Positions 1,652 through 24,455 of a stretch of 26,011 bases of DNA are shown here, in pieces. Both the position numbers and the translations under genes were made by a program. Every line of letters begins with the position of its first letter. Position 1 is the first letter of the stretch. Source of the stretch: a virus. The notes under the pieces were generated by a model. That model saw only the letters and a program-made list of their open reading frames with translations, made no database searches and was not told where the DNA came from. The stretch covers positions 1 through 26,011 of the IMG/VR virus record IMGVR_UViG_3300025889_000840; one strand, 5' to 3'.

Positions 1652-4600
1652 ATGGCATTAGAACTTAGAAGAAAATCAAAGATATATCTTAAATCAGAAA
1701 AAGTTGCGATAGAGGACACTTCTCCGCTATCCGAAGAGTTTTTTGGTTTAAACGACTTTCCTAAATACTTTGGTGAGGGTAAAAATTCATTTAGAATCCG
1801 ACCACGACCTGATTCACTAAAACCAAACACTAAAATTGATGTAGAGGTTATTGATGTAAATGGTAATGTTGTATATTGGGAAATACCATCGTATAAAGAT
1901 AATGACCAATCACGACTAATCTCGGTTTGGGTGTATGATATTGCTGATAGAAAATACAACACACCAGACGGTCCGTGTGAAGTAATTATTGTTGGTACTT
2001 TACCAGATGGCCAAAAAATTAGATGGTCACGTGTCGTAGACGTTGTAAAAAACAAAAAATCAATTTCTGAGGTTGTTTTTAAAGAAATACCAAAGGGAAA
2101 TGTATCTGCTTCGATAGAAGTATTCTCAGATGTACCACAATCCGGTGGTTCATTAACTCGCACAATTCAACCCGGACAATTTACATATAAGAAATCGATA
2201 TATGGTGATGATGTTTCATTTGAAGCATCTACCGCTATAATTAATGGTGAGATGATAAGTGGTAGTCTTGAATTGGATTTATCATCAACGATATTGTTCC
2301 CACGATTAACAGGTCAGTCTCAACCAACACACGTTACCGCAAGTATTACCGAGATTGTATCTGATACCATATTTAGAGTATCATTACCAATTACTGCAAG
2401 TGATAATAGGAATCGAGGGTCAATACACACATACGAATATTCAGATGGTACACTTAGTGGTGATATAAAGTATCTATCTACTGGCTCGCTGGTAACTACA
2501 CAAAACCAAGCTGCTATTGCAAATATTACATTAAGTAATGTAAATCCAGTATCGGGCCGCGTTAGTTCTGTAAACACTCTTATCAAATCACAAGGTTTGC
2601 CAAATGCAGATTTTGAATTATTAGCAAATACTGATGTACCTAATGTAAGAGAAATATCTTATAAGGTTGCAATACCAACCGAACAACTAAATGACCCAAA
2701 GACTTTAAAGATACAGTTCTTAAATAAAAATGGCGATGTATCAATTACTGAAATACTTATCGAGGATGTTGTATTTAAGGGGGGTAACGTATACATTGGT
2801 GGTAATCAATCTATTGTAACAGGTTCATTGTTTATTGCAAATGCAATTGGTAGTGGTCTTGAGATAGGTGGACACTCTTCTGGTTTTATGAAGTCCGTTG
2901 GATATGAAGGACAAATATCAGCATCCGAAGGAAAAGGTCCTGGTGGGTTTATTATATATAGTGGTAGTAATGCATTACAAATGGGTGCAGATGTTCTCAC
3001 TGGAGTTGGTATGCAATTCGTTGGTGATAACGATGATAGACACCTTATATTCTCTACTGCTAATGGTGGTGTATTGGATGTTAAAACTGATAAGTTCTTT
3101 ATAGGTAATACCAACTCACAATTTATAAGTGGGTCTGACTCAAACATTGAAATCAGTTCATCACTATTTCACTTAGACCCCAAAAATCAAATATTAATTA
3201 TCGGGTCCGATGCAGTTATCGAGGGTGGTCTTAGTGCTGATAGAATATTCACACCAGCAACAATAGGTGGGTCCCCATCAAATATTACAAACGCAAGTTC
3301 ATCGATAACACAAGATGGGTTTGCTAAGTTTGTATCTGCAAGTATCGCAGGGTTTACAATAAACACCGAAGAAATCAAATCATCGGATGAGTCTTTGAGA
3401 TTAAAATCAAATGGTCAAATGACTGGTTCTGCAATTCTACTTGGTGATAAAGTAGGTGGTAACTTTGTACAATTTGCAGACTCTACATTAACAGTTAGAG
3501 GTGACCTTGCAGTTGACCAAATCACGACTCCTGCCACAATTGGTGGGTCTCCTTCAAACCTAACCAATGCAAGTTCATCCATCACTTCAGATGGGTTTGC
3601 TAAGTTTGTATCAGCAAGTATTGGTGGTTGGGATATTACGACTGATTCAATTGAGGGTGGTAATCTTATAATGAAACCTGAAGGTATACTACAAACAAGA
3701 GACTTTGCAAGTGGTGTAAAAGGTTGGAAGATATCAAGTGAATTGAATGGATATGCTGAATTTGAAAATGTAAAGATTAGAGGTACACTCGCAACAACTA
3801 CATTTGAAAAGGAAAGTGTAAACGCAGTTGGTGGTCAATTGTATGTTGCCAATTCCACTACGATAAGTGGTTCTATTAGTTCGAGTCTTAGTTCAGTAAC
3901 AACTGATGTAACCAACTCATTTGCAGTAAATACAACACTTATAGGTGGTGAGACTGAAATTCTTTTAGATGATTATACCTCAGTAAGACCACCAAACCAA
4001 CCAACTATGTCAGTTAATGATATAGTTACATTACAATTCGTTGGAACAAACCCAAATCCTGACCCATCTGCAACATTCTTCACAAATGGCTCGGATTTGG
4101 TATCAGCAACTCTTACCACGTTATCGGCTGGGGTGTTTAGATTTGGTTTAAACGGTGGAATTGAAGTTGGTGAACTTGGTGGTGCTGAAATTAGAAATAC
4201 AGATGCAGCAGGTGATAACTTTATTGTACACTATTCATCCGCATCTTTAAGTTCGAGTATAGATGAAGTCTACACAAATGTATCACCATCTGCAAGTTCA
4301 TTCATTGTAGACAACGTTACTGGATTTGCAAGTGGTGAAATCCTAACAATGAAGAAGGTAACTAATACTGGATTTTCAACCGAATATGTAAAAGTAGATT
4401 CCGCAGAACGAATTAGTGGTGGTAGTGAATCTGATTTATCGGGTTACCTACACGTTACACGTTCATATGGTAGTGGTACTACTGGCGATTCTGGCTCACT
4501 TGGTGATATCGCATCAACTGCACAATCATACGAAGAAGGTCAAGTAATTGTATCTACTGGTAAGATAGGTAGTGGTTACATAAGACTAAATGCAAATCCA

Positions 4601-6238
4601 AATGACCCATCAACACCATATATGGATATTGTTGAAAGAACTGGTAGTGGATTATATGATATCGAGTTAAAAGCAAGATTGGGTGATTTGAGTGGACTTG
4701 CAAATACACCTATGGTATTTAGTAAAGCAAATCCAGGGTTTGGATTAGCAACTGATAATGTATATCTACAAGGGGGTATCATTGCAACCTTTGGTGAGAT
4801 AGGTGGGTTTGGTATAAATGCAACTACGATTTCATCATCAAATAATAATCTTATTTTAAGAAGCAATGGTCAGATAACTGGGTCTGCTGCATTATTAAGT
4901 GGAAGTGATGTAGTCATAGATGTAGAGGATTTTACATTAAATTCAACAAACTTTAAAGTAAATTCGGCAGGTGATATTACTGGGTCTAATGTATTATTTA
5001 ATGGTGGGACTATTGGTGGATTCGATTTAACATCGAGTCAAATAAATTCTACAAATGATTTATTGATTCTAAAATCAAACGGGCACATCACTGCGTCAGC
5101 AGCACTTATTAGTGGTAGTAATATTCAAGTAGATACTCCAAACTTTGGAATAACATCCGATGGTGAGGTAAGTGCTAATAAGATAATACTTGAAGATACC
5201 GCACGAGCAGATTCATTTACATACACTTACACTGGTATTAGTGCTGGAAATAGAACAAGTTACATAGGAACATATAGTGGTTCTGATGGTAATCTTTACT
5301 CGTACATTGATTTATCTGGTATTGAAAGTAAATTGGATAATACAAAATCAGGTGCATCTTTTATAAGAATTGCTACTGCACCGACATATCCAATTGGTGC
5401 TATTATTCATCCGTTTGCATATGGTGATACTGCTCCGTATAGTACTGGTAATACCGGTATGCAAGTTACTATTGAATGTGCAACTAGTAACATTAGATTT
5501 GCATTTGGAATCCAACCAAAATCGATTGGTGGTAATGCCGAACAATATGATTACACTGGTAGTCTTGTGTTTACTGACACCAAAGGTACAACAACCTTAG
5601 AGCGAAGTTATTTAAATACTGTAACTGGATTTTATACTCGTGAATACAACCCATCGAGTGTGACTATTGGTGCATATACATATACGGATAAAGTATGGAC
5701 TGTACCAAGCGCTACTGCAATTTCACTATCTCGTGGATTCTTTGCTTGGCAAGTTTTGTATACATCGAGAAATACCAATATGACAATTGGTAACCTAAAA
5801 CCATTTACAGATAATCTATATGACATAGGTGATACTAACTATCGTTTTGATGACATTTATGCAACAAATGCTACAATTCAAACTTCCGATGAAAGTATAA
5901 AGTCAAACATCTCGGATTCGGATTTGGGATTGTCATTTGTAAATGCATTGAGGCCTGTGAGTTATAGATTTAATAATGTACCCGCTGAAGTTGATGATTC
6001 TGGTAGTATATTATCTTACAAGACTGGTTCAAGAACACATTATGGTTTGGTTGCACAAGAGGTAAGTTCATCTCTTGGTACACTTGGAAAAACCACAAGT
6101 GACTTCGCAGGGATTACTACTGGGTCTCTTATGGGACTTAGATATGGTGAACTAATCTCACCAATGATTAAAGCGATACAAGAACTTTCTGATGAAGTAA
6201 ATCAACTAAAACTTCAGTTAAGTCAAAGTCAAGGATAA
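1652..6238 (+). CDS. Large tail fibre/virion adhesin with C-terminal S74 intramolecular chaperone
   Basis: A 1528-residue virion protein, probably a trimeric host-recognition fibre. The start at 1652 follows GGGAG (1640-1644); the ATG at 1648 is out of frame and soon closed. Most of the chain is Ser/Thr/Gly/Asn-rich, low in Cys and beta-rich, with repeated modules (see repeat entries). The C-terminal ~117 residues are a peptidase S74 domain: S1412-D-E-S-I-K1417 matches the Ser-Asp-x-x-x-Lys cleavage motif of endosialidase-type chaperones. It is followed by the conserved LRPVSYRF and HYGLVAQEV (1463-1471) segments and a terminal coiled coil. In this family the chaperone drives trimerisation and then cuts itself off before the Asp, so the mature fibre probably ends near 1412. 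The receptor is not predictable. Confidence 0.9.
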   Translation: MALELRRKSKIYLKSEKVAIEDTSPLSEEFFGLNDFPKYFGEGKNSFRIRPRPDSLKPNTKIDVEVIDVNGNVVYWEIPSYKDNDQSRLISVWVYDIADRKYNTPDGPCEVIIVGTLPDGQKIRWSRVVDVVKNKKSISEVVFKEIPKGNVSASIEVFSDVPQSGGSLTRTIQPGQFTYKKSIYGDDVSFEASTAIINGEMISGSLELDLSSTILFPRLTGQSQPTHVTASITEIVSDTIFRVSLPITASDNRNRGSIHTYEYSDGTLSGDIKYLSTGSLVTTQNQAAIANITLSNVNPVSGRVSSVNTLIKSQGLPNADFELLANTDVPNVREISYKVAIPTEQLNDPKTLKIQFLNKNGDVSITEILIEDVVFKGGNVYIGGNQSIVTGSLFIANAIGSGLEIGGHSSGFMKSVGYEGQISASEGKGPGGFIIYSGSNALQMGADVLTGVGMQFVGDNDDRHLIFSTANGGVLDVKTDKFFIGNTNSQFISGSDSNIEISSSLFHLDPKNQILIIGSDAVIEGGLSADRIFTPATIGGSPSNITNASSSITQDGFAKFVSASIAGFTINTEEIKSSDESLRLKSNGQMTGSAILLGDKVGGNFVQFADSTLTVRGDLAVDQITTPATIGGSPSNLTNASSSITSDGFAKFVSASIGGWDITTDSIEGGNLIMKPEGILQTRDFASGVKGWKISSELNGYAEFENVKIRGTLATTTFEKESVNAVGGQLYVANSTTISGSISSSLSSVTTDVTNSFAVNTTLIGGETEILLDDYTSVRPPNQPTMSVNDIVTLQFVGTNPNPDPSATFFTNGSDLVSATLTTLSAGVFRFGLNGGIEVGELGGAEIRNTDAAGDNFIVHYSSASLSSSIDEVYTNVSPSASSFIVDNVTGFASGEILTMKKVTNTGFSTEYVKVDSAERISGGSESDLSGYLHVTRSYGSGTTGDSGSLGDIASTAQSYEEGQVIVSTGKIGSGYIRLNANPNDPSTPYMDIVERTGSGLYDIELKARLGDLSGLANTPMVFSKANPGFGLATDNVYLQGGIIATFGEIGGFGINATTISSSNNNLILRSNGQITGSAALLSGSDVVIDVEDFTLNSTNFKVNSAGDITGSNVLFNGGTIGGFDLTSSQINSTNDLLILKSNGHITASAALISGSNIQVDTPNFGITSDGEVSANKIILEDTARADSFTYTYTGISAGNRTSYIGTYSGSDGNLYSYIDLSGIESKLDNTKSGASFIRIATAPTYPIGAIIHPFAYGDTAPYSTGNTGMQVTIECATSNIRFAFGIQPKSIGGNAEQYDYTGSLVFTDTKGTTTLERSYLNTVTGFYTREYNPSSVTIGAYTYTDKVWTVPSATAISLSRGFFAWQVLYTSRNTNMTIGNLKPFTDNLYDIGDTNYRFDDIYATNATIQTSDESIKSNISDSDLGLSFVNALRPVSYRFNNVPAEVDDSGSILSYKTGSRTHYGLVAQEVSSSLGTLGKTTSDFAGITTGSLMGLRYGELISPMIKAIQELSDEVNQLKLQLSQSQG
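3251..3628 (+). repeat. Two-copy ~34-residue repeat inside the tail fibre
   Basis: Copies at 3251-3352 and 3527-3628, offset by 92 residues, encode nearly the same segment: TPATIGGSPSN, then TNASSSIT, then DGFAKFVSASI. The DNA differs at many third positions, so the duplication is not recent or synonymous drift is fast. In phage fibres such blocks are repeated shaft modules. Confidence 0.85.
3350..5122 (+). repeat. Three-copy shaft module in the tail fibre (LKSNGQ-TGSA type)
   Basis: Three diverged copies begin near 3350, 4802 and 5015. Each runs Gly-Phe, then a stretch with Ile and Ser/Asn, then a core like LILRSNGQITGSAALL (second copy) or LILKSNGHITASAALI (third copy). The second and third are 71 residues apart; the first overlaps the end of the neighbouring 34-residue repeat. 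This is protein-level modularity of a fibre shaft, not a DNA array. Confidence 0.75.
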
Positions 6239-6246
6239 TTATTATT

Positions 6247-8544
6247 ATGGGAAAACTAATAAACGAATGGGTAAAGGAATCAATCCTTACCGAAGACATC
6301 AAGAAAACAGTCGTAACCTACGTAGGCAGGTTTCATCCATTCCATTCTGGTCATAACGCTACATACCAACATTTGGTAAAAAAGTTTGGTAAAGATAATG
6401 TATACATTGGTACGTCCGATAAGGTACAATTACCAAAGTCACCATTCCAATTCAAAGAGAAGGTTCAGATAATGACTACTATGTTTGGTATTCCCAAAAA
6501 CAAAATAGTAAAAGTAAAGAACCCATATTCACCAAAAGAGATTCTACAATCATTTTCAGAAGAGACTACTGCATTTATCACAGTAGTTGGTGAGAAGGAC
6601 AAGAGTAGATTGGGTGGTAAATACTTTGAACCATATAAGGGTAAGGTCGAAAAGGGTTATGCTGATACTGGTTATGTTTATGTAGCCCCATCACAAGGAA
6701 GTGGAATATCTGGTACTCAAGTTCGTAAAGGTATGTCTGACTCAGATGAGAAATCCCGTACTAAGTTTTTCAAATCAGTATATCCAAAGTTCAACCAAAA
6801 GATTTTTGATTTAGTATCTTCTAAGATTCTACGTTCTGAAGAGGTAATGGAGTCGTTCTTACAATCGATTAACCTCAACTCAATCTTAAATGAGAACTCA
6901 ACTGCTGCTGGTATCGGTGGTAACTCACAAGGTGTTGATGATGGTCCAGGTGCTTTCTATGGTAATATGAAAACCTTTAAGAAAGAAATGGAAGATGTAG
7001 TTGGTACATTGGGGTGGAACATCGTGACCTATCTTATGGATGAAGATGATATGGAATCATTCACGGACACCGAGTATCCAACTGGACCTGGTAGATATCC
7101 AGTATCATTCTTTCCAAGTGGTAAAGCAGGTCTTGATGCATTGGCAGTGAGATATGGTGATGACCTTCAAGGTAATAAAGCATATAAGAAATGGTCAACC
7201 CATATTAAGAAAGTTGCTTTACAAATGGGATATGAGTTCCTAAACTTCTTAGAACCAAAAGATATTGAAAATGTATTATCAAATGAACCTAAGAAAGAAA
7301 AAGAAACTACCGGAGACTTAAAAGAAAGTTTCCTCATGGAAGGTGGTGCATATGGTCATATGAATCACCCATTCGATACTGAGTTGGGATTGACCTTTGG
7401 TGATTTAAGAATAATCATAGATGGTGCACTTAATGGTAAGTTAGAATTTACAAGAGAAAAAACCGATGGACAAGCACTTGCTATTTCATATAGAAAAGAT
7501 AAAGGTATCATCGCTGCAAGAAATAAATCACATCTAAAAGATAGAGGACTTAACGCATTAGACATCAAAGGTGTTTCAGATAAGTTTGCTAATAGAGGTG
7601 GATTGACCGATGCGTATAATTTCGCAATGAGAGATTTGGAGTCTGCGATTTCAAAACTATCAGATGCACAAAAAGAAAAAGTCTTCAAAAGTGGTTCAAA
7701 GTTTATGAACATTGAAGTCATCTGGCCGGAGTCAGTAAACGTAATACCATATGGTCAACCTCTATTAGTATTCCACGGAACTATGGAGTATAATGAAAAG
7801 GGTGAAGCAATTGGAGCAGACACTTCTGATGCAAGAATACTTGCTGGAATGATTAAACAGGTAAATGCCGATGTTCAAGATAAGTACACAATCCAAGGTC
7901 CACCGGTTGTAAAACTACCTAAGAGTCAAGAGTTATCCAAACTAAAATCAAAATTCTTTGGTGAATTGTCAAAAGTACAAAAAGAGTTTAAACTAAAAGA
8001 TACTGATGGTGTTGCCGAATATCACCAAAGATGGTGGGAAGCGTATGTTGATAAGAACTCACCATCCACTTTGGATAACAAAGTTAAAATGGGATTGGTA
8101 AAGAGATGGGCATTCTACGATAAGGGATTCCGTTTGGATAGTAAAAACATTACTGATTCTAAAACACTGGATTGGGCTAAAAAGACTGACAAACAAGACC
8201 AAGCTAAGATAGCAAAAGAAAACACACGTAAGTTTGAAGATATCTTCTTAGGTGTGGGTGCTGAGGTTCTATCATTTATGTCTTCAGCATTAACGGTCAA
8301 TCCAGATAAGGCATTGAGAGATATGCAAAAGAGGCTTGACCAAACAATCAAAGATGTTAAGAAGTCGGGTGACCCCAAGAAGATTGCAAAATTAAAAATG
8401 GAATTAGAAAGACTGAACGCAGTTGGTGGTAGAAATAAGATTGTACCAAATGAGGGATTGGTATTCGCATATAAAGGATATACAATGAAGCTTACAGGTA
8501 CGTTTGCATCACTAAACCAAATCTTGGGTTTAATGTATTTCTAA
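6247..8544 (+). CDS. Fusion of HIGH-type nucleotidyltransferase and KxDG ligase-like nucleotidyltransferase
   Basis: A 765-residue two-enzyme protein. Residues ~20-200 look like a cytidylyl/adenylyltransferase of the HIGH superfamily (NMN or pantetheine-phosphate adenylyltransferase type): VGRFHPFHSGH at 26-36 holds the HxGH site, and ISGTQVRKGM at 154-163 resembles the ISSTxIR motif. Residues ~366-765 look like a covalent nucleotidyltransferase (RNA/DNA ligase): motif I K405-T-D-G408, a motif III-like NIEVIW at 488-493, motif IV EGLVF at 736-740 and motif V MKLTG at 747-751. About 245 residues separate motifs III and IV, unusually many. The middle (~217-360) is unrecognised. [LI]xE sites at INE7, LTE16, LNE216 and LME365 fall at the N-terminus and the domain borders. 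It starts 8 bases after the fibre with AAGGA inside the fibre's last codons. Substrates are unknown; the ligase call rests on motifs only. Confidence 0.7.
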   Translation: MGKLINEWVKESILTEDIKKTVVTYVGRFHPFHSGHNATYQHLVKKFGKDNVYIGTSDKVQLPKSPFQFKEKVQIMTTMFGIPKNKIVKVKNPYSPKEILQSFSEETTAFITVVGEKDKSRLGGKYFEPYKGKVEKGYADTGYVYVAPSQGSGISGTQVRKGMSDSDEKSRTKFFKSVYPKFNQKIFDLVSSKILRSEEVMESFLQSINLNSILNENSTAAGIGGNSQGVDDGPGAFYGNMKTFKKEMEDVVGTLGWNIVTYLMDEDDMESFTDTEYPTGPGRYPVSFFPSGKAGLDALAVRYGDDLQGNKAYKKWSTHIKKVALQMGYEFLNFLEPKDIENVLSNEPKKEKETTGDLKESFLMEGGAYGHMNHPFDTELGLTFGDLRIIIDGALNGKLEFTREKTDGQALAISYRKDKGIIAARNKSHLKDRGLNALDIKGVSDKFANRGGLTDAYNFAMRDLESAISKLSDAQKEKVFKSGSKFMNIEVIWPESVNVIPYGQPLLVFHGTMEYNEKGEAIGADTSDARILAGMIKQVNADVQDKYTIQGPPVVKLPKSQELSKLKSKFFGELSKVQKEFKLKDTDGVAEYHQRWWEAYVDKNSPSTLDNKVKMGLVKRWAFYDKGFRLDSKNITDSKTLDWAKKTDKQDQAKIAKENTRKFEDIFLGVGAEVLSFMSSALTVNPDKALRDMQKRLDQTIKDVKKSGDPKKIAKLKMELERLNAVGGRNKIVPNEGLVFAYKGYTMKLTGTFASLNQILGLMYF

Positions 8545-9569: not shown

Positions 9570-9869
9570 ATGATTAAGTTAAAAGAATTATTAAACGAGA
9601 GTGACTACAAAGTATATCACAAGTCATTTACTGAAGCATCTGAAGAAGCAAGAAAGCTTGCTGAAAAACGTGGATTCGAAATCGATGAAGATGATTGGCA
9701 GTCTCAGATTGTAATGGGTGGTCGTAACAAACGTTCAAGACCAAGTGAAGGTAAAACTACTGAATTTACAATCGGATTACTAAAGAATGGTAAACCACAA
9801 CGTAAGTCTCTTCAAATCCAAGTATATGGTATGAAGAAGGGTTACGAACTAAACGCATACATCAACTAA
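9570..9869 (+). CDS. Small accessory protein with capsid-targeting-like N-terminus
   Basis: 99 residues, function unknown. It opens MIKLKELLNESDY, almost the same as the N-terminus at 19266 (MKLKNILNES) and an internal segment at 19830 (MKLKDLLNET). L8-N9-E10 followed by Ser fits a T4 gp21-type [LI]xE cleavage site, so the first 10 residues may be a removable capsid-targeting peptide. The remainder is a small alpha/beta domain: a helix rich in Glu/Ala (~20-35), a DEDDWQSQIVMGG stretch, then basic NKRSRPSEGK and two beta strands ending YELNAYIN. It starts 3 bases after the upstream stop and ends 8 bases before the next start. Confidence 0.72.
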   Translation: MIKLKELLNESDYKVYHKSFTEASEEARKLAEKRGFEIDEDDWQSQIVMGGRNKRSRPSEGKTTEFTIGLLKNGKPQRKSLQIQVYGMKKGYELNAYIN

Positions 9870-9877
9870 GGAGTATT

Positions 9878-11578
9878 ATGAATCCTCAACTCAATAAAAA
9901 AGTTAAGAAGTATTTAGACTCGTATTTTAAAGATACTAAGGCCAATTCACCAGAGCATCAAGAGGCAGTGATGTTGATTTTGAAAGGTGCTCTTACTGAT
10001 GCTAACTTTCATAGTGAAGCAAAACAATTGGGTAAGTACTTCCCAAAAGCAAGTAAGAAATACATCGGAACACCAATGGAAGGTGTAATTGAAGACAAGG
10101 GTGTAGACATTGCTAAAATGGCAAAATGGGATGGTCACGATATTATTGATGCATTTGCATTTTATCTAAGTATGTCAATTGGTGGGTCTTTCGGAAATAG
10201 ATTGATGTCACTAAAAGAGTCAATTGAAGAGTCATTGGTTAAAGAGGGTGAACAATTGGACGAGAAGAATGTACCAACTAACCCATCTAAATGGTCTTAC
10301 TATAAAGCACAAGCAAAGAAGAAGTTTGATGTATACCCATCAGCATACGCAAATGGTTGGGCTGCAAAACAATACAAAAAAGCAGGTGGTGGTTGGAAAA
10401 GTGAATCGGTAAACGAAGGTTATGGTGAGTTCATCAAAGCTAAAAACCTTACTGATATTGTAAACTTATCTAAGAAAAAGAAAAACGCAGTATTCTATGT
10501 AACTGATGATAACAATTCTCGTATCGGTGCATTCTACTTAAAGAATGGTAAGTTTGCAAAAGCAACTTCTGCAAATCCTAACTACGATTTACAAAATAGT
10601 AAAACTACATTAAGAGATAGAAGTGATGTAATCTACAAATACAAAGTAGATGAATCAGTAAACGAAGGTAGAGTTGAAAAAGAAGTATTACAAAAAATAT
10701 CTAAATTTGAAACTTTATTAGGATATATTACAAATGATGACCAATATAAACCATTAGTTTCTAAAGTAAAAAGAGAAATTGATAAGTTAAAAAAACAAAT
10801 TGAGAAAAATGAATCAGTAGTAAATGAAGGTAAATTTGATAGAGATGTTGAAAAATTGTATGACGCAAAAGAATTCGATAAATTTATCAAAAGATATAAA
10901 TCTAAGTTTGATAAAAAAGACTACAAACAACTTTTAGACTACGCAAAGTCGCTTAATAACGAAGAGAGGGATTTTGAACGTGAAGATTTCGATGACCCAT
11001 TCGATGAACAAAATGCTGAAATGCAATTAGATACTTCTCGTGAGGATTTGAGAGAACTTATATTGAAATCATTGAATGAATCAGTAAACGAAGCAGCAAG
11101 TAGAACTGCAATGGAAATTGGTGGTTTGACTGGAATGAACAAAGATGCTATCCAAAAGTTTGTTGATGATAACAACTTAGACATTGAAAAAGTATACCAA
11201 TTCGTTAAGAAAGGTAAACTTGCTGATAGAATGAAGTTAGTATCTGCAATCGCAGGAAAACCTAATAACCCAGTTCAAAAGAAAATGGTTAAGCAATTCG
11301 GTGAAGGTATCATTAGAGAAGCAAAAGTAAGATTGGGTAAAGACTCTGTAAACTTCAAAGTGTTGGGCGACTCAAAAGGATTGACTCTAATCGCTGCAAG
11401 TGGTAATGACTTAGATGGTCTTCAAGACGCAATTGATAATGATGTTGATGTTAAAGGTGAATTGAGAAAGACACTCGAAAAGCAACTAAAAGTACCAGTA
11501 GAAATCGATGGTGGTTATGATGGTGCTGGATTTAGATTTAACATTGACTTTTACTCATTAGCTAAAAAGGTAAAATAA
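9878..11578 (+). CDS. Modular accessory protein with repeated ESVNE-type junctions (possible head polyprotein)
   Basis: 566 residues behind a strong Shine-Dalgarno (AAGGAG, 9869-9874). Small unrelated-looking modules are joined by the same short linker. Module 1, ~1-117, is helical. A short module follows with SKWSYYKAQAKKKF and YPSAYANGWAAKQYKKAGGGW (136-173). ESVNEG occurs at 176-181 and 259-264, ESVVNEG at 312-318, LNESVNEA at 399-406, and IIREAK at 478-483. Between them lie a ~75-residue beta-rich module, a ~50-residue coiled coil, an acidic helical module (319-398), a helical module (407-476) and a C-terminal alpha/beta module (483-566). Each linker has an [LIV]xE site. I infer processing by the prohead protease into several internal head proteins. 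No module has an assigned function. Confidence 0.75.
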   Translation: MNPQLNKKVKKYLDSYFKDTKANSPEHQEAVMLILKGALTDANFHSEAKQLGKYFPKASKKYIGTPMEGVIEDKGVDIAKMAKWDGHDIIDAFAFYLSMSIGGSFGNRLMSLKESIEESLVKEGEQLDEKNVPTNPSKWSYYKAQAKKKFDVYPSAYANGWAAKQYKKAGGGWKSESVNEGYGEFIKAKNLTDIVNLSKKKKNAVFYVTDDNNSRIGAFYLKNGKFAKATSANPNYDLQNSKTTLRDRSDVIYKYKVDESVNEGRVEKEVLQKISKFETLLGYITNDDQYKPLVSKVKREIDKLKKQIEKNESVVNEGKFDRDVEKLYDAKEFDKFIKRYKSKFDKKDYKQLLDYAKSLNNEERDFEREDFDDPFDEQNAEMQLDTSREDLRELILKSLNESVNEAASRTAMEIGGLTGMNKDAIQKFVDDNNLDIEKVYQFVKKGKLADRMKLVSAIAGKPNNPVQKKMVKQFGEGIIREAKVRLGKDSVNFKVLGDSKGLTLIAASGNDLDGLQDAIDNDVDVKGELRKTLEKQLKVPVEIDGGYDGAGFRFNIDFYSLAKKVK

Positions 11579-13548: not shown

Positions 13549-15120
13549 ATGCCAGATATAAAAACACTTATCAGAGAAGAGTGGATAAAGTGCGCTAAAG
13601 ACCCAGTTTACTTCTTTAAAAAATATTGTTATATCCAACATCCGCACCGAGGTAAGATTTTGTTTAATCTATACCCATTCCAAGAGGATTTGATGAGTAA
13701 TGTGAACGATAATCGATTCAATGTTATTCTAAAGTCGAGGCAGTTGGGTATCTCAACCTTATCAGCAGGGTACTCACTTTGGTTGATGTTGTTTCACGAA
13801 GATAAGAATATTCTTGTAATCGCAACCAAACAAGAGGTCGCTAAGAACCTTGTAACAAAGGTTCGTTTTATGCACGATAACTTACCATCGTGGTTAAAAG
13901 GTCAAACGGAAGAAGATAACAAACTATCATTACGATTGAGAAATGGTTCTCAAATAAAAGCAACATCAGCAGCAGGTGACGCGGGTCGTTCTGAAGCATT
14001 ATCGATGTTGATTATTGATGAGGCTGCATTTATTAACAATGTGGAAGAGATTTGGACTTCGGCACAATCTACACTTTCTACTGGTGGGGGCGCAATCGTA
14101 TTATCTACTCCAAATGGTGTTGGTAATTGGTTTCACAAGATTTGGCAACAAGGTCAGCAAGGTGACCAATGGTATCCAACAGAACTGCATTGGAGTGTAC
14201 ATCCTGAACGAGACCAATCTTGGAGAGATGAACAAGAAACACTATTAGGAGCCAAAGGTGCTGCTCAAGAGTGTGATTGTGACTTTATTTCATCTGGTCA
14301 TACTGTTGTTGAGGGTGCTACATTACAATGGTATGAGGAAACATATGTCAAAGACCCGTTGGAAAAACGAGGTTTCGATGGTAACTACTGGTTATGGGAT
14401 TATCCAAATTATTCTCGTGATTATGTTGTCGTAGCTGATGTCGCACGAGGTGACTCATCGGATTATTCAGCATTCCACGTTTTTGATGTAGAGACTGTTG
14501 AACAAGTCGCAGAATACAAAGGTAAGTTAGACACCAAACAATATGGTGCTATGTTAGCATCGGTGGCAACTGATTGGAACAATGCAATGTTGGTTATTGA
14601 AAACGCAAATATTGGATGGGCTGTAATTCAAGAAGTAATCGATAGAAGTTACAATAACCTATATTATTCGTATAGAGATTTAGGTTATGTTGATGATGAC
14701 ATACATCTAAGAAAAGGGTTTGACCTTAAACGAAAAGAGGATATGGTTCCTGGATTTACAATGTCATCAAGAACACGTCCTTTGGTAATATCTAAGTTAG
14801 ATATGTATATGAGAGAAAGAACCCCTATAATCCATTCTAAGAGACTTATAGATGAATTGTTTGTATTCATATGGAATGGTAGTAGAGCTGAAGCACAACG
14901 AGGTTATAATGATGACTTGGTAATGTCCTTCTCAACCGGATTGTGGGTTCGTGACACCGCATTAAAATTAAGACAACAGGGTATGGATTTGACCCGTACC
15001 ACATTAAGTCATATGGGTAAATCGAGTACTGGTGTATACTCACAACGAAACCTTGGCCAAGACCCTTGGAAGCAAAAAGACCAACGTGGAAATGACAACG
15101 ATTTAACTTGGTTACTATAA
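13549..15120 (+). CDS. Large terminase subunit (T4 gp17-like)
   Basis: 523 residues. This motor packages DNA into the prohead and cuts concatemers. The ATPase domain has a Walker A-like S63-R-Q-L-G-I-S-T70 in which the usual Lys is Ile, Walker B LIIDEAAF at 154-161 (D157, E158), and a coupling segment LSTPNGVGNWF at 185-195. The nuclease domain has the three expected acidic sites: VVADVARGDSSD (D297), MLVIENAN (E351) and GYNDDLVMS (D455/D456), as in the RNase H-like terminase nuclease. The C-terminal tail (~490-523) is polar. The start is 1 base after the upstream stop. No small terminase gene is seen nearby, although one of the unassigned genes could fill that role. Confidence 0.95.
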   Translation: MPDIKTLIREEWIKCAKDPVYFFKKYCYIQHPHRGKILFNLYPFQEDLMSNVNDNRFNVILKSRQLGISTLSAGYSLWLMLFHEDKNILVIATKQEVAKNLVTKVRFMHDNLPSWLKGQTEEDNKLSLRLRNGSQIKATSAAGDAGRSEALSMLIIDEAAFINNVEEIWTSAQSTLSTGGGAIVLSTPNGVGNWFHKIWQQGQQGDQWYPTELHWSVHPERDQSWRDEQETLLGAKGAAQECDCDFISSGHTVVEGATLQWYEETYVKDPLEKRGFDGNYWLWDYPNYSRDYVVVADVARGDSSDYSAFHVFDVETVEQVAEYKGKLDTKQYGAMLASVATDWNNAMLVIENANIGWAVIQEVIDRSYNNLYYSYRDLGYVDDDIHLRKGFDLKRKEDMVPGFTMSSRTRPLVISKLDMYMRERTPIIHSKRLIDELFVFIWNGSRAEAQRGYNDDLVMSFSTGLWVRDTALKLRQQGMDLTRTTLSHMGKSSTGVYSQRNLGQDPWKQKDQRGNDNDLTWLL

Positions 15121-15193: not shown

Positions 15194-17065
15194 ATGGCAA
15201 ATAAATCGCTATTTAGTAGGTTAGGTAGATTGTTCAACACTCAAGTTGTTGTTCGTAGAATTGGTAAAGGTAAAACTCAAGCAATTGATACACAAAGATT
15301 ACAATCTCAAGGTAACCTTCGTGGTTCATCATATTATGATAGGTTTGGTAGATTACATACCAGTCGTAGAAACTGGGAGACCTATAATAATCAATTCAAC
15401 TATCATTCAAACAAGTTAGAATTGTATACTGATTACGAAGCGATGGATAAGGATTCTATCATCTCATCAGTTCTTGATATTTACGCAGATGAATGTACTC
15501 TAAAAAATGATGTAGGTGATGTTATCCGTATTAAGACCAATAACGAGGATGTGAAGAAAATTCTTCATAACTTATTTTACGATGTTTTAAATATCGAGTT
15601 TAATCTTTGGGCTTGGATTCGTGGTATGAGTAAGTATGGTGACTACTACTTACACTTGGATATTGAAGAAGGTGTTGGTGTCGTGAATGTATCACCAATG
15701 TCTGCATATGAAGTTGAAAGAGAAGAAGGATTTAATCCTGAGAATCCATATGAAGTAAGATTTAAGTTGGGTTCTATGGGTGCAGCTCACGGAGCAAGTG
15801 TAAATAAGAATGCAGAATTCTTTGAGTTCTACCAAATTGCTCACTTTCGTTTAATGGCGGATACAAACTTCCTACCTTATGGCCGTTCACTATTAGAGGG
15901 GGCAAGAAAGACTTGGAAGCAATTAACTCTTATGGAAGATGCGATGATGATTCATAGAATTATGAGAGCACCTGAAAGAAGAATCTTTAAGATTGATGTA
16001 GGTAACATTCCACCAAGTGAGGTGGATAACCATATGAGAGGTATTATCGACCAAATGAAGAAGATTCCATATCTCGACCAAAACACTGGTGACTATAACC
16101 TCAAGTTTAACTTGATGAATATGTTGGATGACTATTACCTACCAGTTCGTGGTGGACAAAGTGGTACTGAGATTGATTCATTAAGCGGTATGGAGTTTGG
16201 TGGTATTGATGATATCGAATACCTAAGAAATAGAATGATGGCAGCACTTAAAGTGCCAAAAGCATTTATAGGATATGATGAGTCGGTAGAAGGTAAGGCT
16301 ACATTAGCACAAGAAGATATTAGATTCGCTCGTTCAGTCGAACGTGTTCAGAAGATTGTTCTTTCAGAGTTAACTAAAATTGCAATCATTCACTTATACT
16401 CACAGGGTTACGAAAACGAAGACCTTGTAAACTTTGACTTGGAATTGACTACACCATCCATCATCTACGAACAAGAAAAAGCAAACTTGTGGTCTGAGAA
16501 GGTATCATTGGTTAGCGATATGAAAGACCTAAAGATGGTATCTCAAGAGTGGATGTACAAGAATGTATTTAATATGTCTGATGATGAGTGGAAAGTTGAA
16601 CAAGCAAAGGTTATTAACGACCTTAAACTTGGATTTAGACACACACAAATCGAAGATGAGGGTAACGACCCAGTAAAAACCGGCCAATCATTTGGTACTG
16701 CGCATGATATCGCCGCTATGCAACAAGATGGTGGTCCAGAATCTAAATTAAGTGATGACGGTGGTTCACCTGAAGGTGGATTTGATGGGGCCGGCCGCCC
16801 ACCTGAAGGTGGTGGAGATTACAAAACGGATGACAACCCATTTGGTAGAGACCCTCTTGGGCAAAAAACGGATATAAAACCAGCCGCAACATATCATAAA
16901 TACAAAAACTCACCACTAGCATATGAACAATCAGAAGCTTTAAAGTTATCCTTAAAATCCGTAAAAACAAAATCACGAGAGATTTTAAAAGAGTCGCTAT
17001 CAGAGGAAAAAAAAGAAGAATCAGGTCTATTAGATGAGAGAAATCTTATTGATGACACGATTTGA
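15194..17065 (+). CDS. Portal vertex protein (T4 gp20-like)
   Basis: 623 residues. It should form the dodecameric portal at one capsid vertex, through which the terminase packages DNA and to which the neck attaches. Family features include YHSNKLELYTDYEAMDKDSI (70-89), ALDIYADEC-like SVLDIYADEC (92-101), a central MIHRIMRAPERRIFKIDVGN segment (252-271), and KVPKAFIGYDESVEGKATLAQEDIRFAR (353-380). These are the characteristic T4-type portal blocks. After ~500 the chain becomes a low-complexity Gly/Pro/Asp linker (DGAGRPPEGGG), then a Lys/Ser/Glu tail with REILKESLSEE, which may hold [LI]xE protease sites. It follows the terminase after 73 bases and is the only gene here ending in TGA among its neighbours. 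Confidence 0.95.
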   Translation: MANKSLFSRLGRLFNTQVVVRRIGKGKTQAIDTQRLQSQGNLRGSSYYDRFGRLHTSRRNWETYNNQFNYHSNKLELYTDYEAMDKDSIISSVLDIYADECTLKNDVGDVIRIKTNNEDVKKILHNLFYDVLNIEFNLWAWIRGMSKYGDYYLHLDIEEGVGVVNVSPMSAYEVEREEGFNPENPYEVRFKLGSMGAAHGASVNKNAEFFEFYQIAHFRLMADTNFLPYGRSLLEGARKTWKQLTLMEDAMMIHRIMRAPERRIFKIDVGNIPPSEVDNHMRGIIDQMKKIPYLDQNTGDYNLKFNLMNMLDDYYLPVRGGQSGTEIDSLSGMEFGGIDDIEYLRNRMMAALKVPKAFIGYDESVEGKATLAQEDIRFARSVERVQKIVLSELTKIAIIHLYSQGYENEDLVNFDLELTTPSIIYEQEKANLWSEKVSLVSDMKDLKMVSQEWMYKNVFNMSDDEWKVEQAKVINDLKLGFRHTQIEDEGNDPVKTGQSFGTAHDIAAMQQDGGPESKLSDDGGSPEGGFDGAGRPPEGGGDYKTDDNPFGRDPLGQKTDIKPAATYHKYKNSPLAYEQSEALKLSLKSVKTKSREILKESLSEEKKEESGLLDERNLIDDTI

Positions 17066-18484: not shown

Positions 18485-18625
18485 ATGTCGTGTGGGTGTA
18501 ACAATAATAAAATAAACGAAGAACTCGAAGTACAAGACCTCGAAGATATCAGATTGATGATACGTAGAGAGCTTGCTAGAGTTTTCTTTGACTTATACCG
18601 TAAGAAAAAAGTGTGGGAAAACTAA
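18485..18625 (+). CDS. 46-residue small protein with CGC motif
   Basis: A short reading frame that fits exactly between its neighbours: ATG one base after the upstream TAG, and its TAA shares an A with the protease ATG (TAATG, 18623-18627). The product begins MSCGCNNNKINEELEVQDLE and continues as a basic amphipathic helix (IRLMIRRELARVFFDLYRKKK). The Cys-Gly-Cys pair is distinctive, and I10-N-E12 is an [LI]xE site that would split the Cys leader from the helix. Size and position recall the small core proteins (gp67/gp68) next to T4 gene 21, but there is no sequence match I can claim. It is probably real because of the tight coupling and the codon use resembling its neighbours. Confidence 0.62.
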   Translation: MSCGCNNNKINEELEVQDLEDIRLMIRRELARVFFDLYRKKKVWEN

Positions 18626-19266
18626 TGAAACAACTTCTCGTAGATACAATGATTTTCAAAGTAACACCAGCAATGTTACAGGAAGCAAAGGAGCAAACTG
18701 GTCGGTTTCTGGTTAGTGGTGTGCTGCAAAGAGCAAATGCTAAAAACCAAAATGGTCGTGTATACCCAAAAGAAATATTAGAAAGAGAAGTTGAAAAATA
18801 CAAAGGTCGTGAAATCAAAGAGAGCCGAGCATATGGTGAACTTGACCATCCAGAATCTTCAGTTGTTGAACTAAAGAATACATCACACATTGTAAGAGAT
18901 GTGTCTTGGAAGGGTGATGATGTTGTGGGGAGTGTTGAAATACTTAATACGCCAGCTGGTAATATTCTTAAAGAACTTATCAAAGCCGGGTGTACAGTTG
19001 GTATTTCATCAAGAGGTATGGGTTCAGTAAAACAAATCGGTGAAGATACTGTTGCAGTAGAAAACGACTTTGATTTGATTTGTTGGGACTTTGTTTCTAA
19101 CCCATCAACTCACGGAGCGTTCTTATCTCCAAAAAATGAGGGCACACTAAACGAATCGATTACTAATAAAAATAATACTTATAAATATACCAAAGCTAAT
19201 AACCTTATGAGAGACATTATGTGTGAGGTTGGTGGTTATTGTGAATGTGATTTTGGAGTAGAATAA
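18625..19266 (+). CDS. Prohead core protease (T4 gp21-like, family S77)
   Basis: 213 residues from the ATG at 18625, preferred over an in-frame GTG at 18613 because it forms a TAATG coupling with the upstream stop. It is the serine protease that degrades the scaffold and trims capsid and core proteins before DNA packaging. Signature segments are SGVLQRANAKNQNGRVYP (31-48), AYGELDHPESS (69-79) with catalytic His75, and GISSRGMGSV (126-135) with the nucleophile Ser128 or Ser129. D155 in WDFVSNPS may complete the site. T-L175-N-E177 before Ser, after the catalytic domain, is a candidate self-cleavage site. It is followed by a ~35-residue tail with three Cys (MCEVGGYCECDF). The stop overlaps the next ATG by one base. 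Confidence 0.93.
   Translation: MKQLLVDTMIFKVTPAMLQEAKEQTGRFLVSGVLQRANAKNQNGRVYPKEILEREVEKYKGREIKESRAYGELDHPESSVVELKNTSHIVRDVSWKGDDVVGSVEILNTPAGNILKELIKAGCTVGISSRGMGSVKQIGEDTVAVENDFDLICWDFVSNPSTHGAFLSPKNEGTLNESITNKNNTYKYTKANNLMRDIMCEVGGYCECDFGVE
19180..19187 (+). promoter_or_regulatory. Perfect TATAAATA octamer inside the protease gene
   Basis: TATAAATA matches the T4 late box exactly and lies 79 bases before the start at 19266. It is inside coding sequence (TYKYTK), so it may be chance in AT-rich DNA; a promoter for the 19266 gene is possible. Confidence 0.3.
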
Positions 19267-20348
19267 TGAAGCTAAAAAATATACTAAATGAATCTCAACA
19301 TCTTTCTTATAAAAGAATGAATGTTGGTGAAGAAAAAGAAGAAAAGGGAATGACCAATGAGGAAAAAAGAGAATTCCTCAAGGCAGTTTCTGAATACAAA
19401 AAATTTGGCGAGTCTATCTATCGCTCGGGCAACTTGGCTGAAGTATACGAGTCAGTTAAAGGTATCGTAGAGACTGCACACAAGGTAACTCTTGAAGAAA
19501 CTGGTGATTGGTTTGACAAGGTAACTGTAAATAGACATATGAAGTCTATGAACGAATCATTCAAAGTATTCTCCAATACAATCAAAGAAGTAAATACCCT
19601 ACAACAACGACTTGAATCAGCATATGATGAAATGGGTGAGGTTCTTGGTAAATACTACGAAATCAAAGAAGGTAACGAGTTTGGTGCTGCTAGAACAAAG
19701 GCAATTGCAAATGGTGATAGTGAATTTGAAGTAGATGGAAAAAAATATCCTGTTAAAGATGTTTCTAAAGATGATAAAGAAAACGCTAAAGAATTCGCTA
19801 AAGAATCGGTAGTAACTGAGGAAGCTAGTATGAAACTAAAAGATTTACTTAATGAAACGTTTTTAGGTGGTGGTGAATTACCATCTTCTAAGTTAATTAA
19901 AATGAAGCAAACATTGGCTGAGACTATGGCTGACGAAGGTGACATTGAAATCAACGAAAACAAATACTCAATCATCGACCCAAAGGGAAACCAAAAGGGT
20001 GTAGGTCCTAAAGACGCTGCAAATAAAATGCAAAAGAAATTGGGTGGTTCTAAAAAAGGATACTTTGTAGTTCCTGCTAAATTTGCATTGAAAGCAAGAA
20101 GAGCAATGGAAAAATACAAGTTTGACTTTAAAAATCCTAAACTTCAAGATATGATGTCTGACCTTTACTTTGAAGGTGTTGAAGAATCAGTAAACGAAGG
20201 TGCATCATCTGAAGAAAAAAGAATTGTAATGTTGGCAGTTAGAAAGATTGCTAAGTATAGAGGTGTTCCAATCGACCAATCAGTAGTAGATGTTCAAAGA
20301 GCCGCGAACGAATTGGAAAGAGAAATTGAAAAGGGTAAGGTAAAGTAA
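19266..20348 (+). CDS. Head-cluster modular protein with two capsid-targeting-like segments
   Basis: 360 residues, GGAG Shine-Dalgarno at 19255-19258, ATG overlapping the protease stop. The N-terminus MKLKNILNES (LNE9 before Ser) looks like a capsid-targeting peptide. The first half (~30-135) is helical (WFDKVTVNRHMKSMNESF, then TLQQRLESAYDEMGEVLGKYY). A short module follows: FGAARTKAIANGDSEFEVDG with KYPVKDV (139-166), and then VVTEEAS. A second leader, MKLKDLLNET (189-198), begins at an internal ATG, 19830. The second half contains a basic alpha/beta module (IEINENKYSIIDPKGNQKG, YFVVPAKFALKARRAMEKY). ESVNEG at 307-312 is followed by a ~48-residue helical module. It looks like two or three genes joined end to end. 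The function is unknown; internal head or scaffold-associated roles fit the context. Confidence 0.75.
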   Translation: MKLKNILNESQHLSYKRMNVGEEKEEKGMTNEEKREFLKAVSEYKKFGESIYRSGNLAEVYESVKGIVETAHKVTLEETGDWFDKVTVNRHMKSMNESFKVFSNTIKEVNTLQQRLESAYDEMGEVLGKYYEIKEGNEFGAARTKAIANGDSEFEVDGKKYPVKDVSKDDKENAKEFAKESVVTEEASMKLKDLLNETFLGGGELPSSKLIKMKQTLAETMADEGDIEINENKYSIIDPKGNQKGVGPKDAANKMQKKLGGSKKGYFVVPAKFALKARRAMEKYKFDFKNPKLQDMMSDLYFEGVEESVNEGASSEEKRIVMLAVRKIAKYRGVPIDQSVVDVQRAANELEREIEKGKVK

Positions 20349-22055: not shown

Positions 22056-23687
22056 ATGAATACAAATTCTCTATTAAACGAATCTGCTGGTTTCAACAAA
22101 AAAATGAGCGAAGAGGCTAAAGGCCTTGTAGCTAAGTGGGAAAAGACTGGTCTACTTGAAGGAATCGACGCTGATTTCGAAAGAGCATCTATCGCTACTT
22201 TGTTGGAAAACCAAGCAAAACAATTGGTATCTGAAGCATCAAGCACAGGTACTCAAGCAAACTCTGAAGAGTGGGCCGGTGTCGCTCTTCCATTAGTAAG
22301 ACGTATCTTCAGCGAAATCGCTGCAAAAGAATTCGTCTCAGTACAACCAATGAACTTGCCATCTGGTCTTGTATTCTACTTGGACTTCAAGTATGGTACT
22401 GCTCAACCAGGTTTCGAAACTGGTGCTGGTAAAGATTCTCAAACTGACTCAGTATTCGGTATCACCGAAGTTGCTGGTGCTGCTTCTGAAGGTCTTTATG
22501 GTGCTGGTCGTTTCGGTTACACAATCAACGACGCATCATCTGCAACACTTTCTGCTCCAACATCTGCATCAGTAGACTTGGGTTCGGCTGCAGGTTTCGG
22601 TATCGTAAACTACGATTCAGCATTCTCTGCTTCAGCTGCAACTGCTGACACTAACCTTGCAACTGTAACAATTGCAACTTCATCTATCGCAGGCTTCGAC
22701 TCAGAAGGTATTCGTGCATTTGAAATATCTGGTTCAGGTATCTCTAACTACTACCCTGCTTACACAGTATTGAGTGGTACAAACATCCGTTTCGTTGTAG
22801 AAGTTCCTGGTTCAATTGGTGCTAATTTCACTATCGTTAACGCAGTAGTTAAGTACCAAAAACAACCAACTGACATCACTCGTGGTGACTTCGAACAATC
22901 TAAAGCTGGTTTCGGTGCGGAGCCTGAAACTGATTTGGGTATTCCAGAATTGAACGTAGAGCTACGCTCTGTGCCAATCGTTGCTAAGACTCGTAAGTTG
23001 AAAGCACAATGGACTCCTGAGTTCGCTCAAGATTTGAACGCTTACCACTCAATTGATGCTGAAGCAGAATTGACTTCAATGTTGTCTGAGTACGTATCTC
23101 AAGAAATCGACCTCGAAATCTTAGATATGTTGATGTCAAACGCATTGACTGAAGGTCGCTGGTCTGCTAAAGTAGGTGATGAGTGGAATGGTTCAGCATT
23201 TGTTGCTGGCGGTACTGCTGCACGTTACACTCAACAACAATGGTTCCAGACTCTTGGTACTGTTCTTCAGAGAGTGTCTAACCAAATTCACGCTAAGACT
23301 ATGAGAGGTGGAGCTAACTTTATGGTTGTTTCTCCTGATGTAGCTACTATCCTTGAGTCTATTCCAGGATTTGCTGCTAATGGAACTGGTGATGCAATGC
23401 AATTCGCAATGGGTGTATCTCAAGTAGGTTCATTCGCTAATCGTTACCAAGTATACAAAAACCCATATATGACTGAAAATGTCATCCTAATGGGCTTCAA
23501 GGGTGGTCAATTCTTGGAAACTGGTGCTGTTTACGCTCCATACATTCCATTAATTATGACTCCTTTGGTATATGACCCGAAAAACTTCACGCCAAGAAAA
23601 GGTGTAATGACACGTTACGCTAAACAAATGGTACGTGGTGAATTCTACGGTAAAGTATACGTAAGTGCTTTGAATACAATTGGATAA
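22056..23687 (+). CDS. Major capsid protein (T4 gp23-like)
   Basis: 543 residues, HK97-fold hexamer subunit of the head. AAGGA precedes the ATG. The N-terminal ~60 residues (MNTNSLLNESAGF, GLLEGI, LLENQAKQLVSE) form a propeptide-like region; by analogy with T4, where gp21 cuts gp23 after LTE65, V58-S-E60 before Ala61 is the likely maturation site. The conserved block ALPLVRRIFSEIAAKEFVSVQPMN (77-100) has the same context as T4 gp23. A Ser/Ala/Thr-rich insertion (~130-265) carries a possible surface domain. Then come DFEQSKAGFGAEPETDLGIPELNVEL, SVPIVAKTRKLKAQWTPEFAQDL, and the C-terminal YKNPYMTENVILMGFKGG. No separate vertex protein (gp24) is seen downstream. Closed by the terminator at 23711. 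Confidence 0.95.
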   Translation: MNTNSLLNESAGFNKKMSEEAKGLVAKWEKTGLLEGIDADFERASIATLLENQAKQLVSEASSTGTQANSEEWAGVALPLVRRIFSEIAAKEFVSVQPMNLPSGLVFYLDFKYGTAQPGFETGAGKDSQTDSVFGITEVAGAASEGLYGAGRFGYTINDASSATLSAPTSASVDLGSAAGFGIVNYDSAFSASAATADTNLATVTIATSSIAGFDSEGIRAFEISGSGISNYYPAYTVLSGTNIRFVVEVPGSIGANFTIVNAVVKYQKQPTDITRGDFEQSKAGFGAEPETDLGIPELNVELRSVPIVAKTRKLKAQWTPEFAQDLNAYHSIDAEAELTSMLSEYVSQEIDLEILDMLMSNALTEGRWSAKVGDEWNGSAFVAGGTAARYTQQQWFQTLGTVLQRVSNQIHAKTMRGGANFMVVSPDVATILESIPGFAANGTGDAMQFAMGVSQVGSFANRYQVYKNPYMTENVILMGFKGGQFLETGAVYAPYIPLIMTPLVYDPKNFTPRKGVMTRYAKQMVRGEFYGKVYVSALNTIG

Positions 23688-23792: not shown

Positions 23793-24455
23793 ATGCCAGA
23801 TAATGTAGAAAAACGAGTTCCAAAAGGAAATATTAAATTTTCAATATGTTTATCCGAAGAGCAAAAGGACGCCAAGTCAAATATTCTTAATCATCCGTTT
23901 AGTTTTATTTTAGGAAAAGCCGGTAGTGGTAAGACGTTAGTAGCAGTTCAGATTGCATTGGATTTATTTTTTAAAAGAGAAGTAAATAAAATCGTTATAA
24001 CAAGACCTACGGTTTCGAATGAAGATAATGGATTTCTACCGGGGTCATTAGAAGAAAAGATGGAGCCGTGGTTAGTTCCAATCCGTTCTAATATGAGAAA
24101 GGTTTACAACAAACCTATGATATTGGAAAAAATGGAAAAGGAAGAGTCAATTGAGTTAGTATCGTTATCTCACTTTAGAGGAAGAACATTTGATAATGCA
24201 GTTGTAATCGTTGATGAGTTTCAAAATTTAACTAAACAACAACTTGGAATGGTGCTGGGTAGATTGGGAAAAAACTCTCGAATGATACTATGTGGTGATG
24301 GCCAACAAATTGATTTAAAATTTAATAATGACTCCGCAATTCACGATGTTCCAAAATTAAGAGAGTCTGAGTATGTCTATACAATAACATTAAAAGACAA
24401 CCACAGACACGAGTCTTTGGATGAAGTTTTAAGATTGTTATACTCAATTCAATAA
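23793..24455 (+). CDS. phoH: PhoH-like ATPase
   Basis: 220 residues, close to the length of the PhoH ATPase core. Walker A G41-K-A-G-S-G-K-T48 and Walker B VVIVDEFQN at 137-145 (D141, E142) are intact, as are the family segments IVITRPTVSNEDNGFLPGSLEEKM (67-90), HFRGRTFDNA (127-136) and ILCGDGQQID (165-174). PhoH proteins are cytoplasmic P-loop ATPases, some linked to RNA handling and phosphate stress; the gene is very common in marine phages but its role in infection is unresolved. AAGGA lies 9 bases before the ATG. It has its own promoter-like box and sits alone between the capsid terminator and the next fibre gene. Confidence 0.93.
   Translation: MPDNVEKRVPKGNIKFSICLSEEQKDAKSNILNHPFSFILGKAGSGKTLVAVQIALDLFFKREVNKIVITRPTVSNEDNGFLPGSLEEKMEPWLVPIRSNMRKVYNKPMILEKMEKEESIELVSLSHFRGRTFDNAVVIVDEFQNLTKQQLGMVLGRLGKNSRMILCGDGQQIDLKFNNDSAIHDVPKLRESEYVYTITLKDNHRHESLDEVLRLLYSIQ

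Follow-up and report, generated by a model that had tools for sequence, protein, structure and literature searches.

A predicted head-protease-cleaved cargo precursor pairing NMN-adenylyltransferase-type and RNA-ligase-like domains in a T4-like aquatic phage

Among the closest described systems are the internal head proteins of phage T4 (IPI, IPII, IPIII, and Alt). The leaders of such proteins, known as capsid targeting sequences (CTS), are removed by the protease gp21, which cuts at L/I-X-E (PMC9026906, PMC9958956, PMC5694885). A leader of this kind is 10-20 residues long (PMC5694885), and the CTS alone is enough for the packaging and delivery of foreign proteins (PMC9026906). Polyvalent proteins (Iyer et al. 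2017, PMC5512222) offer a second comparison, as they are large, combine several unlike domains, undergo modular exchange, and have been proposed to be injected and to be processed by zincin peptidases embedded within them. To counter anticodon nucleases, phages also repair RNA, using ligases and CCA-adding enzymes (PMC7824862). Finally, in cyanophages the gene for an NMNAT-like 'cytitidyltransferase' (T4-GC190) adjoins a gene encoding DUF6267 (PF19782; T4-GC71), and T4-GC190 has been detected by mass spectrometry in purified virions of S-SM1 (PMC3037559). CTS cargo, polyvalent proteins (PMC5512222), phage NMNATs, and RNA ligases are all known ingredients. What is new here is the pairing of an NMNAT-type with a ligase-like domain, the several arrangements of that pair, the probable assignment of DUF6267, and a precursor with exchangeable modules that is predicted to be cleaved by the head protease.

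The gene considered here lies in an IMG/VR record, a virus fragment of 26,011 bases (the window, meaning the whole stretch of DNA that was analyzed), which holds a block of head and packaging genes from a T4-like phage. It begins with ATG and runs without internal stop from 6247 to 8544 on the + strand, encoding 765 amino acids. Upstream is a tail fiber gene (1652-6238), and downstream are genes for the terminase (13549-15120), the portal (15194-17065), the head maturation (prohead) protease (18613-19266, + strand; PHROG 207, 4.9e-52), the major capsid protein (22056-23687, + strand; PHROG 138), and PhoH (23793-24455). The phage that carries the precursor gene also carries, in this PHROG 207 gene, a gp21-like protease, the enzyme expected to cut the precursor. 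The N-terminal region of the capsid protein has [LI]xE sites of its own (LNE9, LLE35, and LLE51), as well as VSE60 followed by ASS.

The reading that we favor, with a probability of roughly 70%, is that the 765-residue protein is a cleavable cargo precursor of a T4-like aquatic phage, delivering NAD- and RNA-repair-type enzymes at infection. It would resemble the T4 internal proteins in its short leader, in L/I-x-E cutting of the gp21 type, and in packaging and delivery, although no sequence relation to the IPs or to Alt was found. In T4, however, there is one leader for each mature protein, whereas this precursor would hold two enzymes along with exchangeable modules. Like polyvalent proteins, it has at least two unlike domains in one phage polypeptide; their processing is proposed to rely on embedded zincin peptidases, while that of the window protein is predicted to rely on the prohead protease acting at sites in linkers. 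A word search of the polyvalent-protein paper (PMC5512222) for NMN, adenylyltransferase, and CCA found none of these terms. The cyanophage pair appears to comprise the same two enzyme types, with CTS-like NMNAT starts, but there they are encoded by separate, adjoining genes in the replication region, in contrast to the single gene between tail-fiber and terminase genes in the window.

The N-terminal domain (residues 18-205; 6298-6861, + strand) had been recognized in an earlier note, made from the sequence alone, by the motifs HSGH (33-36) and ISGTQVR (154-160). Both lie where the note had placed them, and conservation argues that neither is there by chance: in 31 aligned relatives, G27, R28, F29, P31, H33, G35, and H36 are invariant, as are S155, G156, T157, and R160, and the fuller motifs GRFxPxHxGH and SGTxxR vary little or not at all. 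The Pfam model CTP_transf_like (PF01467) covers residues 25-161 with a score of 21.2 bits, just above the cut-off of 21, and searching the PDB with a profile of the 31 relatives finds NadM, the archaeal NMN adenylyltransferase, at 7e-8. The AlphaFold model of the domain (pLDDT mostly 70-94) has a Rossmann-like nucleotidyltransferase fold, and a Foldseek search with it puts NMN/NaMN adenylyltransferases first. The domain thus appears to be of the NMN-adenylyltransferase type, within the NMNAT/PPAT class that the note had proposed. Phage NadM (NMNAT-Nudix) and NadR have the same HIGH-type adenylyltransferase fold and motifs, but their partner domain is a Nudix domain or a kinase, whereas here the partner is ligase-like.

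That partner, the C-terminal domain (residues 366-765; 7342-8541, + strand), has the marks of an RNA-ligase-like covalent nucleotidyltransferase, with motif I at K405, Ia at R425, III at E490, IV at E736, and V at K748. The note had pointed to KTDG (405-408), EGLVF (736-740), and MKLTG (747-751), all of them present at those positions, and had missed the motif III glutamate. Across 35 aligned C-terminal domains, reaching down to 35% identity, the invariant residues include E404, K405, D407, G408, R425, N426, and E490 and, further on, E736, G737, V739, K748, L749, T750, and G751. K405 and R425 are 20 residues apart, which we take to be the spacing of the motif I lysine and motif Ia arginine in T4 Rnl2 as well. 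Modeled alone by AlphaFold (mean pLDDT 78), the domain shows the strand order of the nucleotidyltransferase core, interrupted between motifs IIIa and IV by a helical insertion of about 200 residues (~530-735).

Standard searches with this domain gave no support: the model gave no significant Foldseek match in the PDB, the sequence profile found nothing meaningful there, and Pfam RNA_ligase (PF09414) matched neither the whole protein nor the C-terminal domain. Re-ranking with VIA-align, however, put RNA ligases in all of the first nine places, if with low Z-scores: 5.6-4.6 for fungal Trl1 and 4.5-3.8 for archaeal RNA ligases. The aligned ranges begin three residues past K405 in the model and three past the catalytic lysines of the matched chains. 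For the Palaeococcus ligase this lysine is K92, according to the title of its PDB entry; for the others we take it to be K148 in Trl1 and K97 and K95 in two archaeal enzymes. Trl1 and the archaeal ligases differ from the C-terminal domain in the helical insertion and in their C-terminal accessory domain; the window protein has no OB-fold or other C-terminal ligase accessory domain. The Z-scores (3.8-5.6) would not suffice alone, but the list of matches, the register of the lysines, and the motifs agree, and together they support membership in the ligase superfamily. Structure prediction, on which the note had staked its reading of both domains, did not refute that reading: it gives a HIGH fold at the N-terminus and what looks like a ligase fold around K405 and E736, the latter with Z-scores too low to stand alone.

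Two relatives have irregular C-terminal domains. One of them (L053:5591-9083) has a naturally split intein whose insertion point in KTDG falls exactly between K405 and T406; an endonuclease-like open reading frame (7172-7906) separates the two halves. An intron was considered in its place, but the interruption has no match in Rfam. Inteins typically persist at active-site motifs. In the other (L056), the part of the domain around motif I is missing, which was taken as a deletion or an assembly fault.

A first search of IMG/VR found 77 loci related to the window gene, and a profile search raised the number to at least 592. In these relatives the N- and C-terminal domains are constant, the middle varies, and the open reading frames range from 767 to 2003 amino acids, with middles of up to about 1400 amino acids between the two domains. 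The middle of the window protein (residues 217-360; 6895-7326, + strand) is a module beginning VDDGP that is widely shared among relatives and replaced by other modules in some. It has no match in Pfam or PHROG, and its model is of low pLDDT. In five relatives (L025, L036, L040, L124, and L199) there is a CCA-adding tRNA nucleotidyltransferase (PF01743, 1e-28 to 1e-31), and other modules include HD (L040 and L124), GNAT (L157), DUF5661, and one with a zincin-like HELVH/HELTH motif. In two large records (G006 and G008), the sole CCA match sits inside the precursor. Modules may be added at the front as well: the 1909-residue precursor at L199:829-6555 carries the CCA-adding and other modules ahead of the NMNAT domain.

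The case for cleavage comes from the distribution of the motif [LI]xE, the strict form of the T4 site. In the window protein it occurs only at residues 7, 16, 216, 360, and 365, that is, after E7 and E16 in a CTS-like leader (residues 1-16, MGKLINEWVKESILTE; 6247-6294, + strand), at LNE216 (6886-6894, + strand), and in tandem at LKE360 and LME365 (7318-7341, + strand), directly before the ligase-like domain. At 16 residues the leader falls within the range of T4 leaders. The note had named LNE216 and LME365, both confirmed in position, and its list was right but short, lacking the two leader sites and the tandem nature of the 360/365 site. The two catalytic cores (583 residues) have no [LI]xE, where shuffling predicts 4.1 (P = 0.0075). 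Family-wide, with expectations from shuffling confined to each region, the motif is depleted in the cores (N-terminal 2 against 19.6 expected, C-terminal 43 against 106) and enriched in the middles (291 against 182, z about 10), counts that come from related sequences, hence are not independent, and are descriptive rather than proof. Of the control motifs, [LI]xD and VxE go the other way in the middles (z -2.5 and -3.8), and E.[LI] deviates too (z 11.8 in C cores and 5.2 in middles).

Where the N-terminus of a relative is resolved, a hydrophobic-x-E site almost always precedes the NMNAT domain, one exception being L052, which starts MIKKTIVVYS. Directly before the ligase domain (GGAYGH), 48 of 49 distinct sequences have [LI]xE, 47 with a second site at most 12 residues away. 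The middle residue of the pre-ligase site varies freely (LME, LLE, LNE, ITE, IME, and others), which is how a protease site looks. In addition, the ends of shared middle segments fall near sites 84 times against 60 (D=15), exceeding all of 1000 random shifts. These figures, too, come from related sequences and are descriptive.

Under the favored reading, residues 1-16 would act as a capsid-targeting leader and carry the chain into the prohead core. Then the gp21-like protease would cut after L/I-x-E, taking off the leader and setting apart the NMNAT-type enzyme, the middle module, and the ligase-like nucleotidyltransferase. The mature pieces would remain in the head and pass into the host along with the DNA. 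Inside, the NMNAT-type enzyme may make or restore NAD+ or a related dinucleotide, and the ligase-like enzyme would most likely seal RNA by way of Lys405-AMP, its probable target being tRNA that anticodon nucleases of the host have cut. In some relatives, a CCA-adding enzyme and an HD domain would join the same cargo. Packaging, cleavage, and delivery with the DNA are predicted for this phage; catalysis, the RNA substrate, and the timing of action are likewise inferred.

The strongest outside support for packaging comes, by analogy, from T4-GC190 in S-SM1 virions, identified as an NMNAT by the record of P-SSM4. The cyanophage NMNATs begin MKKFSAFLSEA (Syn9), MKKFSAFLKEA (P-SSM4), and MKKFSTFISEA (S-RIM14); MINFSKYITED and MMKFTQFLAES open two of the DUF6267 proteins, and all of these starts are presumably close to the leaders of T4 internal proteins. 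DUF6267 itself, matched in 468 phage records, has the motifs KxDGAP, QGD, NTIxY, VFHTxY, and EG(F/Y)V, with a conserved K after them, in the same order as the C-terminal domain of the window protein; common to both is the series HxxHxxD, KxDG, NxIxY, VFHxT, EG(L/F)V, K, the first of these standing as HLEHxED in DUF6267 and GHMNHPFD in the window protein. The window protein does not match the DUF6267 family model (PF19782). Profile-profile comparison of the trimmed cores gave 29.3, against 22.9 for the best of 60 shuffles; over the full length the motifs aligned in order but the score (24.0) was not above the best of 100 shuffles (24.3). DUF6267 is therefore a probable rather than a proven divergent homolog of the C-terminal domain. 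One profile, PHROG 455, joins DUF6267 and the cyanophage NMNAT. The literature search found no text naming DUF6267, and nothing beyond the T4 review linking capsid targeting sequences to cyanophage cargo.

It is tempting to go further and regard the NMNAT and an unrecognized RNA-ligase-like family (the C-terminal domain and DUF6267 together) as a packaged pair, conserved across T4-like aquatic phages and acting as a single early counter-defense pathway, the dinucleotide from the NMNAT being used by the ligase-like enzyme or replenished for it, with a cleavable precursor serving, in part of these phages, as an exchange platform for RNA-repair modules such as the CCA-adding enzyme and HD. We hold this larger proposal only tentatively and would sooner bet against it than for it. 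Complete NAD salvage by the phage (NadV with NMNAT) was considered and is not apparent, a point against the favored reading: NadV was not found in any of the ten large IMG/VR relatives or in 12 of 13 large records, the one exception being LR756500. In nine of the ten IMG/VR relatives Pfam likewise gave no match to an RNA ligase or a DNA ligase. Relatives carry a few tRNA genes, five in G001 and three in G006.

The choice of RNA as substrate is suggested by the nearest folds, which are RNA ligases, and by the cargo of some relatives, there being no pointer to it within the window itself. Perhaps the ligase-like domain acts instead on DNA, for example on nicks in the phage genome as it enters, which it would seal. 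An enzyme delivered together with that genome would be well placed for such repair, and there would be a gap to fill, in that nine of ten large IMG/VR relatives have no match to a Pfam DNA ligase of the ATP or NAD type, though lack of a Pfam match does not prove lack of a DNA ligase. However, only RNA ligases appear among the nearest folds, no OB-fold domain is present, and in some relatives a CCA-adding enzyme shares the precursor. We consider action on DNA unlikely.

Somewhat less probable still is that the protein remains uncut, a bifunctional enzyme made during infection whose ligase-like domain uses the NMNAT product (NAD+ or another adenylylated cofactor), the sites being incidental. The arrangements of the pair bear on this in both directions. 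In Mel-JY01, within the same terminase/protease/capsid neighborhood, almost no middle separates the two domains, as might be the case in an uncut enzyme. The order is reversed, ligase-like domain first, in two loci (L201, BLASTP 2e-27, and L202). That the pair recurs with either domain first, and in neighboring genes in cyanophages, argues for linked roles, whether or not the chain is cut. Elsewhere, however, the ligase domain is a separate gene that has gained its own leader: MIRLQKILNE, then VLLKE, then GGAYGH in L045, and MKFLKSYEEFLNE followed by NLILE and GGSYGH in the 421-residue protein of L081/LR756500, a 462-kb phage where a gene with an NMNAT domain comes next. These leaders, the virion homolog T4-GC190, the nearly constant pre-ligase site, the depletion of sites in both cores, and the long middles that part the domains in some relatives all argue against an uncut enzyme. 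If the precursor is cleaved, the NMNAT and ligase-like parts would not form one bifunctional enzyme.

With these arrangements in hand, the pair appears to occur in hundreds of aquatic phages, in at least four arrangements, and to have gone unrecognized. The earlier note had suggested two enzymes separated by the prohead protease and delivered as T4 Alt is, in an arrangement without characterized precedent. The two enzyme-type domains gain support from motifs and fold comparisons, and cleavage and delivery from site statistics, the leader, and the virion data on the cyanophage homolog; what does not stand is the singularity of the arrangement, which is one of several for a widespread pair. The note's idea that the pair could jointly make and use a nucleotide cofactor, or cap or repair RNA, stays hypothetical. 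Two reversed or split loci deserve mention in themselves. The reverse fusion at L202:5956-8403 is on a 2.8-Mb WOR-3 chromosome record (a MAG) with cellular-looking genes nearby, and may be a provirus or a binning artifact. The gene adjoining the stand-alone ligase of L081 (11256-13226) encodes 657 amino acids with a C-terminal NMNAT domain and, toward the N-terminus, SENLDGS, possibly from a degenerate ligase-like domain.

About as doubtful as an uncut enzyme is the idea that the pair transfers an adenylyl group, or one derived from NAD, to RNA or protein as a cap or other modification (NAD-capping, say, or adenylylation of host proteins) and ligates nothing. The C-terminal domain keeps the residues for covalent nucleotidyl transfer while lacking extra C-terminal ligase domains, its constant partner is of a dinucleotide-making type, and packaged NAD-using enzymes are known, T4 Alt among them (PMC9503650). 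Against this, the closest structures are those of ligases. Finally, a structural or scaffold role with no enzymatic activity, suggested by the location in a head and packaging block, is very improbable given the invariance of the catalytic motif residues of both folds across highly diverged relatives and the split intein exactly between K405 and T406.

The favored reading would give a testable function to DUF6267, a widespread family of unknown function, and to a cyanophage virion protein that since 2010 has gone under no other label than putative cytidylyltransferase. It also suggests that these phages bring NAD- and RNA-repair-type enzymes along rather than wait for their expression, and release by the head protease of exchangeable cargo enzymes would extend the CTS idea from single proteins to strings of cargo.

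Other genes of the window have features of the same kind. A 566-residue protein (9878-11578) has ten [LIMV]xE[GASN] sites against 2.4 expected, with none of 1000 shuffles having as many; four of the ten are VNE followed by G or A and lie between segments. Judging by these sites, it is probably a second precursor cleaved by the head protease. The product of 19266-20348 starts MKLKNILNE and has a near-copy, MKLKDLLNE, inside, which would fit a fusion of two head proteins, each with its own leader. Lastly, a 99-residue protein (9570-9869) starts with MIKLKELLNE followed by SD, resembling the leader of the separate ligase of L045, and is a candidate small internal head protein.
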